A stretch of 40,199 nucleotides of DNA from Acidobacteriota bacterium. GTDB taxonomy: Bacteria > Acidobacteriota > Blastocatellia > Pyrinomonadales > Pyrinomonadaceae. Under the pieces are notes generated by a model that was not told the DNA's origin, made no database searches, and saw nothing but the letters and a program-made list of their open reading frames with translations. Where the stretch lies: contig JAKQII010000148.1 of assembly GCA_029557535.1 (NCBI GenBank), positions 1 to 40,199 on the forward strand, written 5' to 3'. The translations under genes were made by a program, and so were the position numbers. Shown in pieces: positions 2,734 through 39,589 of this stretch; the first letter of the stretch is position 1, and each line of letters starts with the position of its first letter.

Positions 2734-2824
2734 TGGCGGAGACAACAGGATTCGAACCTGTGAAGGGCTTTTGACCCTTAACGGTTTAGCAAACCGCCGC
2801 TTTCAGCCGCTCAGCCATGTCTCC
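2734..2824 (-). tRNA. tRNA-Ser (anticodon GCU)
   Basis: Acceptor stem GGAGACA/TGTCTCC, anticodon loop TTTGCTAA, T-loop GGTTCGAATCC, long variable arm, encoded CCA. Confidence 0.97.
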
Positions 2825-31411: not shown

Positions 31412-32299
31412 TTACTTTTTTAGTGATTGACCCTGAACGTCTTTAGAGGAAAACTTCGGAGTCTTTCCGTCGAATTCCAGCAAAAGTGAAAGCCGACCCG
31501 TTTTTCCATACGCTGCCGGAACGGCACTGGCGTGGTACTTCTTCTTATCGCCCGAAACAACCAGCGTGAACCGATAACCCGTAGATTCACTCGAATTCGC
31601 ATCTTCGGGCAAGAGTCCGGCTCCAATCAACTGCTGCATTTCGCCGAACGACCCGCCGTTTTGGAGAGCGAAAACCGTTTGCGATTTGTAGATCCGTTCG
31701 AGCATCGCCTTTGCTTCGGCCTCATGGGTCTCGATCCGCAGATTGAAGAAGTATCGATTGCCCTCCTTTTTGATCTGGGCTTCGAATGATTCGTCGACGG
31801 TAAGGATGATCCAGTAGTTTCCTTCCTTTCGAAGCCTGATCTCCTGGAGTTTGATCTCACGCGTCTCGTTGTCGGGAAGCTTCGCCGTAACGGTTGCGTA
31901 ATTTCCTGAAATGATCTCGCCGTTGATCTCGACCTCGGCCGGAACGCCGACGGCGATCTGTTCGAAATCGACCTTGAGGTCATCGAGTTCGGATTCGGTC
32001 AGCCCCTCGATCGCCGGCCGGAGATTCGTCAGGAACAACGCTTCACGAAATTTCTTATCGCGGAGATAGCCGTAAAAGACGCGGACCGTATCAGCAGGAC
32101 CGTTTTCCGTGATCTCGATCGTTGCATGCTTCGAATAGGAGGCCGCCGGATCGCTTTTCCTCGGACCGCTCAAGTCGGCTGCCGGACTGACGACGGGATC
32201 GGCAGCGGCGACCGGTCGGGCGCTGTCGCTTGAACAGCCCGCCAAAAGCGCCAACGCAACAACAAAGCAGATACCGCAAACAAGACGCATTTTGAACAT
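31412..32299 (-). CDS. Putative lipoprotein
   Basis: MFKMRLVCGICFVVALALLAGCSSD lipobox; C-terminal part resembles pilin-like/type IV minor pilin C-termini only weakly. Confidence 0.7.
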   Translation of the reverse strand: MFKMRLVCGICFVVALALLAGCSSDSARPVAAADPVVSPAADLSGPRKSDPAASYSKHATIEITENGPADTVRVFYGYLRDKKFREALFLTNLRPAIEGLTESELDDLKVDFEQIAVGVPAEVEINGEIISGNYATVTAKLPDNETREIKLQEIRLRKEGNYWIILTVDESFEAQIKKEGNRYFFNLRIETHEAEAKAMLERIYKSQTVFALQNGGSFGEMQQLIGAGLLPEDANSSESTGYRFTLVVSGDKKKYHASAVPAAYGKTGRLSLLLEFDGKTPKFSSKDVQGQSLKK

Positions 32300-32445
32300 A
32301 GTTGGTGATTGAAAAGTAGTTCTTCGATCGAAATGATCTCGGGGTCCAAGCGGCCGGGGAATTCGCCGCGCGTGAGAATTATAGCGCGGCGCGTACAAAA
32401 AGGTAAAACAAAAACTGAAGTTCTTTATGGATTGGCAATAAGGTG

Positions 32446-32574
32446 TCAAAATTCAACAATCAAGATTCAAAAGTCAAAATCCGTGGGGCGATCAAGAATC
32501 TTGAACTTTCAATTTTGAACCTTCAATCTTGAATCTTGAATTTTGAATCTTAAATTTCGAATCCCGAATCTTAC
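32446..32574. repeat. Opposing heptamer arrays (5 + 11 units)
   Basis: TCAAAAT|TCAACAA|TCAAGAT|TCAAAAG|TCAAAAT then ATCTTGA|ACTTTCA|ATTTTGA|ACCTTCA|ATCTTGA|ATCTTGA|ATTTTGA|ATCTTAA|ATTTCGA|ATCCCGA|ATCTTAC. Confidence 0.9.
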
Positions 32575-34451
32575 TCAACCTTCAGGTTCACCGTTTCCGT
32601 TTTACCGCTCTCGACGCTGACTTTCGTCGCATCTTCGAGGTGTTCGGCGAGCCAGGTTTTCCATTCTTCGCCAGTCGTCGTCTGCTGTGCCCCAACGACG
32701 ATCACCGCGTATTCGCCAGGTGCGACCTTCGCCTCAAAAGCTCCTTCGGTATCCGACTGAACGGTTCGCTGAAACGTATCGATCCGTTTCTTCGCGTCTG
32801 TCGGAACCAGAATTATCCGCACGCCCGAAGCCGGTTCCTTATCAGCGGTGAGAATCACACCCTTGATCGTTCCGACTCCCTTGCCCAGAACGATCCGTAC
32901 ATTTTCGAGCTTCTCGCCTTCTTTGAAATCGTATTCAGTCGTCAACAGATCGGTGGATCCGGCCATCGCACTCTTGACGTAGTAATCGCCGTCATCGACG
33001 CGGATCGTAAATTTGGTCTTGCCCGATGCGACGTTTTCGATCTTGAAATCGTGGTTCGGTTTGAGCGTCTGCGGCGTCGGCCTCGGGAGACGCGAGGTCG
33101 AAGATACCGCGACCTCAGCCGAGACGTCGTAATTCGTAACCGACGCCCGTGTGCTGAGCTCGGGCGTCTCGTGCTCGGCGCGAATACTCACGCTTCGGGG
33201 CATCTCGTTGATCAGATTCTCCACGGCGACGATTCCGGAAACAGTCGCTCCGTAGCCGAGTTCGATCGAAAGATCGAGCTGGTCGCGGTCTTCGACTATC
33301 ACCTCCTGTACCCGGCTCGAATACCGCGGTTCGGTTTTCGCGGGCGACGGTTTTGGTTTTGGGCGGCCTTCCTCGTCGAAATCGTCGGGATTGTAAACCG
33401 GATCGACGCGGGGGGTGACGACCAACTTGTACTTCCCTTTCGGCAGTTCCTTGAACGACCAATTCCCTGATGGATCGGTTTGGGCGCCCTGCATCCGCCG
33501 GCCGATCTCGCTGAAGATCGAAAAGAGCTTTTCGTCGCCGACCCTTTGGAGCGTGATCTCCGCTTTAACCGGAGTCTTGTTCGCCCGCGAAATAACGCGT
33601 CCCCCGAGTTTGAAAAGATAACGACTTGGGATCGTCACATTGACTTCGGTCATTTCCGTGCCGTATTCGACTTTGACCGGCTGTGCCGAAGCGGGATCGA
33701 GAGTATCCGGGTTGAAAACGGTCAGGAAAGAGCTCCCGCCTCCGAGGATCGTGCTTTCGAACGCTCCGCCGCGGCCTGATGAGTCGGAGTGACTGACGTT
33801 CTCAGTCGCCTTAACGATGTACTCGCCCGGCGGAAGTCCGGAGAAGCGAAATGCGCCTCGATCATCCGACTGGTACTGCCCGCCGCCGAACATACCTACG
33901 ATCGCCGAGAAGTTCGGGATCACGGAGAGGTACTTGTCGCCGACCTTTCTCAATACTTCAACACGGACGCCGACGGCCACGTCGCCGTCGTCGTAATAAA
34001 CGCGGCCGCTGATCGCTCCGCCGCGTTTGGCGGCGATTTGGACATAGGTGTCGCTGACTCCGTTGACGATTATTTTCTCAAAATCCTTGAACGCTTCCTG
34101 AAACGCGCTCTTCTCGGAGGCTCCGGGCCGCTCCATTTGCGAAAAGTCGAGGAAGGCCATCGGCGAGACGACTCCCGGCGCGTTCACCATCGGATAATAA
34201 GTGCCGGCGGGAACATCCTTCATTTCGAAGTTTCCCTCGTTGTCGGTCAGTGCGCCCGACTCGCCCGGACCGCCGCGCATCGTTTCCGCAATGAGCATTA
34301 CTGACGCCCGTCTGACGGGACGACCCGATTCGGCGTAAAAGACGCGGCCGCGGACCGTCGATTTCTGAATCGGCGTCGGAGTTGTCTCAGGATCCTGTCC
34401 GAATGTTGGAATACTGAAAAACAGGAAGATCGCGATTGTGTAGAATTTCAT
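32571..34451 (-). CDS. Secreted protein with carboxypeptidase-regulatory/Ig-like domains
   Basis: Signal peptide; STVRGRVFYAESGRPVRRASVMLIAE; GAISGRVYYDDGDVAVGVRVEVL. Confidence 0.85.
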   Translation of the reverse strand: MKFYTIAIFLFFSIPTFGQDPETTPTPIQKSTVRGRVFYAESGRPVRRASVMLIAETMRGGPGESGALTDNEGNFEMKDVPAGTYYPMVNAPGVVSPMAFLDFSQMERPGASEKSAFQEAFKDFEKIIVNGVSDTYVQIAAKRGGAISGRVYYDDGDVAVGVRVEVLRKVGDKYLSVIPNFSAIVGMFGGGQYQSDDRGAFRFSGLPPGEYIVKATENVSHSDSSGRGGAFESTILGGGSSFLTVFNPDTLDPASAQPVKVEYGTEMTEVNVTIPSRYLFKLGGRVISRANKTPVKAEITLQRVGDEKLFSIFSEIGRRMQGAQTDPSGNWSFKELPKGKYKLVVTPRVDPVYNPDDFDEEGRPKPKPSPAKTEPRYSSRVQEVIVEDRDQLDLSIELGYGATVSGIVAVENLINEMPRSVSIRAEHETPELSTRASVTNYDVSAEVAVSSTSRLPRPTPQTLKPNHDFKIENVASGKTKFTIRVDDGDYYVKSAMAGSTDLLTTEYDFKEGEKLENVRIVLGKGVGTIKGVILTADKEPASGVRIILVPTDAKKRIDTFQRTVQSDTEGAFEAKVAPGEYAVIVVGAQQTTTGEEWKTWLAEHLEDATKVSVESGKTETVNLKVE

Positions 34452-34487: not shown

Positions 34488-36308
34488 TTATTGCGCGGGA
34501 ATTTGCAGAACGACTTCGACCGTATCGCCGGCCCGAAGTTCGACCTCACGTGCATTCCGCAGCAACTCCTCGAACCGTGCCCGAGCCGAGGCCGGATCCG
34601 AAATCCGCGCAGTTGGCAAAAGAACTACACGATACGCGCCCGGCGCCACCCGAAGTTTGAACTTTCCGTCACGGCCGATCATCGTCCCGCCGACCGACGT
34701 GGCCGAGTCCGTTTTGGTCACAATGACGCTGTAACCGACATTCGGGTCGTAATTTTCAACGACGCCCGAAATAGTTCCCATTCCCTTTGAGACTATGATC
34801 GTCAGTCCTTTGATCTCGTCGCCCTCGCCGACCTTGAAGGTTTGATTGACAACATCGCCACCGCCAAGCGTGGCACTCACGAGATAAAAGCTCTGGCTCG
34901 AAACCCGGACCCGATAGGCGCCGGCCTCAAGCCTACCGAATCGGATGGTCTGATCAGTAGTAGCCGGTTTGGTCTGACCCGGACGCCGGTTCGATTGCAT
35001 GTCCGGACCGACACTTCGCTTCGTCTTTTCGTTCACGAGAAACACGCCGAACGTCGAATCGACAACCTTTCCGTTCTCGTCGCGAACCGTCGCGACAACG
35101 CTCGATTCGACCGGCATCTCGATCGAGAGACCGCTGACGTCGCTTTCGGCGAGTTCGATTTCCTTGCGAACCGTTGCATAGCTCCGTTTGACGGGTTCCC
35201 TTTGGCTTTGTTGGGTCTGGGGCTGCGCGGGAGCGCGGTAACCTTCAACGACGGTGACACTGTATTTGCCCTGCGGCAGATTGGTGACTCTCCATTCGCC
35301 GGATCCGTCGGTTGTCACATTGGTCGAGTTTCCTGTCCCGTCAATCACGCCGCGATCGATGTTGTCCGCCCGCGTAATCGTTACCAAAAAACCGGCGAGA
35401 GGCTCCTTGGTTCCTTTGAACACAACGGTCCCGGAAATCGCAAAGAGCTTCCGGTCGGGGAGCGTGATGTCCACGGACTGGATCTCTTCGCCGAGTTGGA
35501 TCTTCATCGACGTCGCCGATTCCGAGAGGTCGCCGTTTGGATAGTAAGTGTGGAGCATCGAGCTCCGCGCCGGGAAGTAGTTGTAGCGTTCGGTCGTTTC
35601 CTGATGACGATACGGCTCGACCGCGCGAACGATGTACTCACCTTCGGGCAAACCGGTGATTCTGTACGCACCGCGGTCGTCGGTGGTCGCCAACCGCGAG
35701 GCCATGAACGAGCCGACAAATGTTCCGCCGTCCTTTCTCATGGCTTCAACCCTGACACCGACGGCAGGCTCGCCGTCAGCATAGAAGATCCGACCGCCGA
35801 TCGAAGCCGCGCGCACCGCCTGCAGTGCGATCTGAATCTCGCCGTTGCCGATAACATCGAACGGAACGAAGAATGCCTTGAAATCCTCAGGGTTCGCACG
35901 GCGCATGTACGACATCGCATCACGTCCGAGAATCCCATCGGACCGGATATTGGCGACGTACGTGCCGGGCCTCACGTTCTTGATGACGAATTCACCGTTC
36001 TGGTTCGTCAGGCCGCTCGCTTGGGAGCCGCCGTCGGTGAACATTACGCCGCTCCCGTTGCCCAATCCGGAACGGGGTGTCGTCGACTGCTCGCGCCGTT
36101 CGGGAATCAACTCGATCGTGACAAACCTCACCGGTCGCCCCGAATCCGAATAGACCACGCGGCCGCGGACCATCGCCCCGGCCTTGGACGGGTCTTCGGC
36201 CGGCCTCGGAGCGGGCGTCGAACGCGGATTGATTTGAGAAAGGGCGAACGTCGGGAAACAAATCAAGAAAGCCAGGAAGATCGTCGCCGGGACGAGGAGT
36301 CGAAACAT
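34488..36308 (-). CDS. Secreted protein with carboxypeptidase-regulatory/Ig-like domains (tandem paralogue)
   Basis: AMVRGRVVYSDSGRPVRFVTIELIPE; ASIGGRIFYADGEPAVGVRVEAM; ATG 36308 with GGAGG (ORF track starts upstream at 36329). Confidence 0.85.
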   Translation of the reverse strand: MFRLLVPATIFLAFLICFPTFALSQINPRSTPAPRPAEDPSKAGAMVRGRVVYSDSGRPVRFVTIELIPERREQSTTPRSGLGNGSGVMFTDGGSQASGLTNQNGEFVIKNVRPGTYVANIRSDGILGRDAMSYMRRANPEDFKAFFVPFDVIGNGEIQIALQAVRAASIGGRIFYADGEPAVGVRVEAMRKDGGTFVGSFMASRLATTDDRGAYRITGLPEGEYIVRAVEPYRHQETTERYNYFPARSSMLHTYYPNGDLSESATSMKIQLGEEIQSVDITLPDRKLFAISGTVVFKGTKEPLAGFLVTITRADNIDRGVIDGTGNSTNVTTDGSGEWRVTNLPQGKYSVTVVEGYRAPAQPQTQQSQREPVKRSYATVRKEIELAESDVSGLSIEMPVESSVVATVRDENGKVVDSTFGVFLVNEKTKRSVGPDMQSNRRPGQTKPATTDQTIRFGRLEAGAYRVRVSSQSFYLVSATLGGGDVVNQTFKVGEGDEIKGLTIIVSKGMGTISGVVENYDPNVGYSVIVTKTDSATSVGGTMIGRDGKFKLRVAPGAYRVVLLPTARISDPASARARFEELLRNAREVELRAGDTVEVVLQIPAQ

Positions 36309-36320
36309 CAGAAAACCTCC

Positions 36321-36364
36321 AAAAAACAAACGAGCCGTCCTGCGATGTTATCACAGAACGGCTC
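36321..36364 (-). terminator. Terminator downstream of OPT transporter gene
   Basis: GAGCCGTcCTG/CAGaACGGCTC stem with one mismatch; T-rich minus-strand tail. Confidence 0.75.
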
Positions 36365-38741: not shown

Positions 38742-38839
38742 CAATCGAAAGCCTCCGGAATTATTGAATCAGGGGAAAGTGTTGAAAAGAAACTGCCTTA
38801 ATGTAGCTTTGAATCGGATAAATCGCAAGACTTCGTAAT

Positions 38840-38874
38840 TCAAGATTCAAAAATCAAGAATCAAGATTCGAGTT
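38840..38874. repeat. Heptamer array (5 units)
   Basis: TCAAGAT|TCAAAAA|TCAAGAA|TCAAGAT|TCGAGTT. Confidence 0.8.
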
Positions 38875-38916
38875 TGGCGTCCCGCCTTCAGGCGGCCTCC
38901 GCATTTGCGATCTTCG

Positions 38917-39054
38917 ATTTGCGATCGCAGGACGATGCCAACTCGTCTGAGCTGCGCGTTCACGCGTGACTATTCAATTTCGATTTGCACTTGCGATCGT
39001 CGGATCACATCAACTCGTCTGAGTTACGCGTTCATGCGTGATCACTCAATTTCG
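38917..39054. repeat. Imperfect tandem duplication, 66-bp and 72-bp units
   Basis: 38917-38982 and 38983-39054 share ATTTGC...CAACTCGTCTGAG.T.CGCGTTCA.GCGTGA...TCAATTTCG. Confidence 0.8.
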
Positions 39055-39112
39055 ATTTGCGATTTGCAATTTTCGATTGGCGGGCGATTCTTAATTTGGC
39101 CCCGGCCGACAA

Positions 39113-39251: not shown

Positions 39252-39589
39252 CTGTCGAAGAGCGACAGATCACAGACCGTTCAACTCTGCCGCTCGCCTC
39301 GCGAGCTCGATTCTCGGTTACCGCCGCGCCCCGGGCTTTATTCAAACGTCCGCTCCGCGGACTCTGACATGTGAGTTTCACGGCTCCGTTCGCCGAAGGC
39401 GATAAATGCTGAAGCCTGGGGGGAAGGGAAGCGAACCCCAGGAATTGTTCCCGAAATATCCGCCGTCGCTGAAAGCGACCTTTCGTCACCCGTTTTGAGG
39501 TCGCCTTCAGCGACCGGGTCTGCGAACTGCCGACACCCGGGGTTTGTTTCGCTGCACCCCGGGGCTTTCTCAGGCATCGCCTTCGGCGA
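39252..39589. repeat. Mosaic of about ten short palindromes
   Basis: E.g. GCTCGCctcGCGAGC (39292-39306), GTCCGCtccGCGGAC (39348-39362), TCGCCgaaGGCGA (39390-39402), GTCGCTgaaAGCGAC (39465-39479), GGTCGCcttcaGCGACC (39499-39515), TCGCCttcGGCGA (39577-39589). Confidence 0.85.

Follow-up and report, generated by a model that had tools for sequence, protein, structure and literature searches.

To our knowledge, why heptameric repeats are over-represented in bacteria has not been explained. The cyanobacterial STRRs of Calothrix and Nostoc, which include GGGGA(C/T)T, are intergenic tandem heptads with several units per genome. The REP/BIME elements of Enterobacteria are extragenic palindromes in 3′ regions, and they are absent between divergent genes. 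In Xanthomonas, Rehm et al. (2015) described GGGAATC heptads with a strong noncoding bias and no known function, which they read as G-quadruplexes (PMC4692102). Each Xanthomonas genome has 70–75 inverted pairs of this unit, in a 'convergent' orientation; most of the repeats downstream of genes lie within 50 bp of the stop codon, some even overlapping it, while they are rare between divergent ORFs, and after stops the G-rich strand is the coding strand (PMC4692102). The same authors found few inverted pairs in Nostoc (PMC4692102). In the Beggiatoaceae, the heptad TAACTGA forms abundant intergenic arrays of a single unit in direct repeat, located just upstream of start codons, with an inverted repeat in one case only (PMC4679880). 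Finally, the passages that describe multicopy classes 1–3 of Geobacter metallireducens present them as tandem 7- or 8-mers paired on opposite strands at variable distance, with a fixed consensus for each class, and propose them as IHF/HU sites (PMC2700814).

The array studied here lies in a window of 40,199 nucleotides from the draft assembly of an uncultured acidobacterium (4.77 Mb in 404 contigs), whose nearest named relatives are MAGs. It is 129 bases long and consists of two heptad arms of opposite sense. The left arm (32446–32480), which is the 5′ arm on the plus strand, has five TCAAAAT-type units of the GATTCAA/ATTCAAG family, in the order TCAAAAT, TCAACAA, TCAAGAT, TCAAAAG and TCAAAAT. 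The right arm (32498–32574) keeps strictly to the 7-bp register over eleven units of the ATCTTGA type, namely ATCTTGA, ACTTTCA, ATTTTGA, ACCTTCA, ATCTTGA, ATCTTGA, ATTTTGA, ATCTTAA, ATTTCGA, ATCCCGA and ATCTTAC. A sequence-only reading of this DNA had described five and eleven opposed heptads without a register slip, and a check unit by unit bears this out, although the spacer between the arms (32481–32497, CCGTGGGGCGATCAAGA), the loop region of the hairpin, is 17 bp and not 18 bp, as had been claimed. As also described there, the left arm, when reverse-complemented, agrees with part of the right arm at 29 of 35 positions, and the right arm runs into the TAA stop codon of a 626-aa gene. The matching part is 32512–32546, and the stop codon lies on the minus strand at 32573–32571, inside the last heptad.

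The left and right arms have TRF scores of 51 and 70. The maximal lag-7 segment score of the array is 23, whereas the entire 40-kb window reached no more than 12 in 60 dinucleotide shuffles, and the lag-7 match over 32446–32575 is 0.63, compared with a window mean of 0.25. The minus-strand RNA of the array folds with −39.3 kcal/mol, compared with −29.4 ± 3.4 for shuffled sequences (z = −2.9), a low energy that is partly inherent in selecting inverted pairs. A comparison with Rfam families across the window gave a tRNA as the sole match. Elsewhere in the window, an AAATCCA heptad array directly adjoins a tRNA gene (2697–2729 and 2737–2824, minus strand).

A BLAST search of the window array against its own genome gave 110 matches at E values up to 10. 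Lag-7 arrays were counted in a 0.78-Mb sample of the source genome, partly chosen around arrays, with genes called by a simple codon-usage model that gives exact stops and approximate starts. As in Xanthomonas, the tandem 7-bp unit has a strong noncoding bias, with 110 arrays in 130 kb of noncoding DNA compared with 4 in 654 kb of coding DNA, and third-order Markov controls contained no lag-7 arrays. In a subset of 0.27 Mb that was not chosen for arrays (271 kb, including about 14 kb of N), there are 19 noncoding arrays and 0 coding arrays. The excess of lag-7 periodicity in intergenic DNA and its scarcity in coding DNA, on which the sequence-only reading had staked its proposal, are thus both seen, and the shuffle and Markov-control comparisons together rule out a chance origin of the array. 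Almost no arrays were found at lags 4–6 and 10–13 in the same 0.78-Mb count; the noncoding arrays at lag 8 number 14, and those at lags 14 and 21 are harmonics.

The arrays are not built from one unit. The source genome has families with GATTCAA, GATTTGG/GATTTGC, GTGGTCA, GTGAGCA, GTAGACA, AAGTAAA and others, as well as arrays of 8-mer units such as AAAAGGGG and AAGATTCC, and three relatives (G003, G008 and G025) have additional families such as GGATAAT, AGAGGTT and GAAAGGC. The unit is lineage-specific, and a phylum-wide pattern search accordingly recovered exact ATTCAAR hairpins from just 2 of 396 genomes. We know of no published STRR unit with the sequence of the window unit, and a text search of papers for the unit strings gave no relevant match. 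The arrays share with STRRs the intergenic tandem heptanucleotides and the presence of several families in one genome, but the unit sequences differ and the host belongs to the Pyrinomonadaceae rather than to the cyanobacteria. STRRs, which had been named as the nearest precedent, are therefore a precedent but not the nearest one, since the GGGAATC heptads of Xanthomonas are also inverted and located at gene ends (PMC4692102).

What is common to these arrays, if not the unit? Adjacent arms in the source-genome sample are inverted in 37 cases and direct in 11, compared with a random-pair null of 18% for each, and the corresponding counts in the three relatives are 26:0, 13:1 and 16:2. Furthermore, the order of the arms is fixed. 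In the A family, ATTCAAG is followed by CTTGAAT in 16 pairs and the opposite order is seen in 1, while in the B family an ATTTGGG-type arm is followed by its complement in 13 pairs and preceded by it in 1. Searched over the whole genome, exact patterns matched 14 times in the favoured order and 0 times in the reverse one; for the second family, the counts were 1 and 0. Over all inverted pairs, G averages 23.5% and C 10.3% in the left arm, and these proportions are reversed in the right arm (9.8% G). These paired, convergent arrays (37:11 for inversion, and 14 to 0 for polarity) resemble those of Xanthomonas. They differ from the start-proximal direct repeats of the Beggiatoaceae, which are likewise intergenic heptads, since the arrays described here are inverted and at gene ends. 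Many other arrays are single-armed; among these, a G-outward orientation is weakly favoured, and only beside stops (40/58, compared with 277/504 in the control).

The two arms of a locus also fit each other better than they fit arms of the same family at other loci, in 21 of 29 loci for family A, 18 of 21 for B, 9 of 10 for C and 6 of 7 for E. On average, the arms become less complementary when the heptads within them are permuted (Stouffer 4.8, in phase); since the effect is significant at few single loci, however, we treat it as supporting only. Some hairpins are composite, with two heptad families in mirrored, nested arm order, as at L114 1613–1783 (AAAAGTG...GATTCAA / CTTGAAT...TTTTTAC), L115 3150–3364, which is similar, and L108 17551–17646. 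Inverted arms, fixed polarity and complementarity within loci thus show that it is the stem, and not the unit, that is kept across loci. From the stop codon outward, the architecture common to the population starts with a 5′ arm that is richer in G, followed by a short spacer and a 3′ arm that is richer in C. In this respect, the arrays closely resemble the Xanthomonas GGGAATC heptads, which we take as the closest precedent; new here are the many families and the units with no G-tract, such as that of the window, in place of one G-rich unit, together with the composite nested arms, the within-locus test of complementarity and the different phylum.

The mirrored arms could also have a near-neutral mutational origin, with no cellular function. 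Heptads would expand by polymerase slippage, intrastrand template switching at a hairpin seed would make the second arm as a copy of the first, as in quasipalindrome-type mutagenesis, and the result would persist in the region just past the stop, which is free of promoter and coding constraint. Units do vary freely among loci and genomes, which fits this origin, and the composite arms at L114 and L115 are the expected trace of inverted copying. However, the fixed polarity of the arms requires an additional assumption. We consider such an origin quite possible, although we lean against it, and the placement of the arrays bears on it further.

Of 81 divergent gaps, 4 contain arrays, as do 61 of 247 tandem gaps and 25 of 65 convergent ones. 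The median distance of the arrays in tandem gaps is 6 nt to the stop and 63 nt to the next called start, and roughly every second array in tandem and convergent gaps starts no more than 6 nt from a stop codon. Both the closeness to stops (the median of 6 nt in tandem gaps) and the rarity in divergent gaps (4/81, compared with 25/65 for convergent gaps) are features of the Xanthomonas repeats as well. Depletion between divergent genes is also predicted by promoter avoidance under a neutral origin. As a control for promoters, which might keep arrays at a distance from starts, the 80 nt preceding the next start were left out, and 15 of 31 arrays in tandem gaps were still within 5 nt of the stop, with 2.0 expected. 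Convergent gaps should contain no promoter of a flanking gene, and there 12 of 25 arrays are at most 5 nt from a stop, with 4.6 expected. This adjacency is far sharper than promoter avoidance alone would give, and placement at the stop and fixed polarity speak against pure neutrality. Smaller samples from the three relatives point weakly in the same direction, and the gene-end rule is therefore firm for the source genome only.

We suggest that the arrays probably mark or protect gene ends. Our proposal for the window array, to which we give about an even chance, is a gene-end hairpin built of heptads, a 3′-UTR stem-loop that acts on the upstream mRNA and is kept by selection on its structure. 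Slippage would lengthen or shorten the arms in increments of 7 bp, and the stem could survive such changes, since two periodic arms could pair in many registers. The stem-loop in the 3′ UTR may end, insulate or protect the upstream mRNA, and selection on the hairpin would maintain polarity and complementarity. The sequence-only reading had likewise proposed a structured 3′ element, maintained by slippage, that may stabilise or terminate the mRNA. The structured element is supported by stop adjacency, depletion in divergent gaps, inverted arms, polarity and complementarity, but termination fares less well: 32150–32800 contains 0 sites resembling an intrinsic (rho-independent) terminator, with a G+C-rich stem and a T-run. 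Transcription, if it ends here, must thus end by another route. Terminator-like sites are present at 8–9% of gene ends with arrays and at 11–15% of other ends, which is not clearly different. More tentatively, and in our view rather unlikely as a general statement, the stem-loops may form a sequence-independent class that marks a sizeable share of the gene ends of this family, ending or protecting transcripts under selection for structure. In such a class, only the 7-bp periodicity, the complementarity of the arms and the G-first polarity would be conserved, while slippage and inverted copying would turn over the sequence and a slippage-proof 3′ hairpin would persist.

The neighbourhood of the window array can be compared with that in related MAGs. 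The 626-aa gene (32571–34451, minus strand), whose TAA stop abuts the array, encodes several carboxypeptidase-regulatory-like or prealbumin-like β-sandwich domains; genomes of the same genus with a match to this protein show only 46–50% identity. The next gene downstream (31412–32299, minus strand) encodes 295 aa from an ATG at 32299, the listed 345-aa ORF beginning at an upstream TTG, and is preceded by a promoter-like site on the same strand, TTTACC-18-TATAAT, at 32378–32407. Homologues of the 295-aa protein that are 60% identical are found in the related MAG loci L073 and L081, both of which also have TTTACC and a TATA-type element between the corresponding genes. The first of these, from MAG cam-2, keeps the gene order OPT, 613/626-aa homologue, 295-aa protein, PilZ and GFO/IDH, but it contains no array: just 10 nt separate the stop from a TTTTACC...TATAAT promoter-like site of the next gene. 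The window array is thus about 130 bp of extra DNA between an intact stop codon and the next promoter. L124 and L125 likewise lack arrays behind the homologous genes, and for other arrays, 11 of 51 homologous gene ends share occupancy, which is not evidently above background. The array site is not conserved between relatives, and the empty site in MAG cam-2 counts in favour of a neutral origin and against our proposal. A 613-aa paralogue of the 626-aa gene (34488–36329, minus strand) lies directly upstream of it, and since L073 has one such gene where the window has two, a tandem duplication is likely. The closest homologues of the OPT transporter (86%) come from Pyrinomonadaceae MAGs, which places the uncultured host in this family. 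The gap upstream of its gene contains heptad arrays at 38838–38869 (ATTCAAG) and at 38903–38925 and 39049–39082 (ATTTGCG in both), which are among the few cases between divergent genes. An imperfect inverted repeat that is not heptad-based, with 92-bp arms, a 16-bp loop and 67 matches, is located at 39390–39589.

Paired 7-mers on opposite strands could instead act as DNA, as sites for a regulatory or nucleoid protein; this has been proposed (IHF/HU) for classes 1–3 of G. metallireducens, which likewise have paired tandem hepta- and octanucleotide sites on opposite strands (PMC2700814). We found no gene-end rule in the passages that describe these classes, while the arrays of the source genome are at gene ends and not at promoters. 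Furthermore, the unit sequence varies so widely between loci that a single sequence-specific protein would not tolerate it, and we regard protein binding as improbable. A mobile palindromic element, REP/BIME- or MITE-like and moved by a RAYT/Y1 transposase, seems to us more improbable still. The whole source genome does have ten Y1_Tnp (RAYT/IS200-like) matches above the family cut-off, but heptad arrays, short or weak ones, occur within the ±1.5-kb flanks of 3 of the 10, which is not evidently an enrichment, and the loci have neither a common core sequence nor constant ends. REP/BIME elements have a conserved palindrome sequence, whereas these are tandem heptads; in the absence of both a conserved palindromic core and a supported RAYT link, we do not assign them to the REP/RAYT group.

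The best-studied case of inverted heptads was interpreted as G-quadruplexes, and the same has been proposed for Nostoc GGGGA(C/T)T. The unit length, the placement at gene ends and the inverted pairs are as in Xanthomonas (PMC4692102), and the GATTTGGG subfamily carries G-tracts. However, the ATTCAAG unit has no G-tract, and yet its architecture and polarity equal those of the G-rich families. Since the window unit, ATTCAAG/CTTGAAT, has none, G-quadruplexes do not explain the window array, and we dismiss them as the general cause; that they account for the arrays is the least probable of the explanations considered and very improbable. Shared architecture and gene-end placement with units that have no G-tract make the hairpin, and not the quadruplex, the common factor. 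The question thus becomes testable, by contrasting loci that have different units and equal structure. If the gene-end hairpin is functional, it would be a 3′-end element recognised by structure alone; if it is neutral, it would be evidence that a mutational process generates periodic palindromes where genes end.

Other repeats were observed along with the heptad arrays. Octad arrays, in which CTTTTCCCC is mixed with CTTTTTCAC, are found at L122 3–340, L099 13896–14163, L090 15165–15299 and L064 9536–9665, and in the first of these, two arms, each 112 bp long, are opposed and match at 96 positions. Inverted repeats of other short motifs (ATCCGCG..., CACGAAG...) are located at L098 16774–16916, L098 19097–19194 and L084 12397–12597. 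There is also a dispersed, MITE-like family of imperfect palindromes of about 300 bp that begin with GAGCCTGTCGGAATAA, with copies at L089 1709–2018, L096 17314–17617, L113 143–452 and L095 13412–13670.
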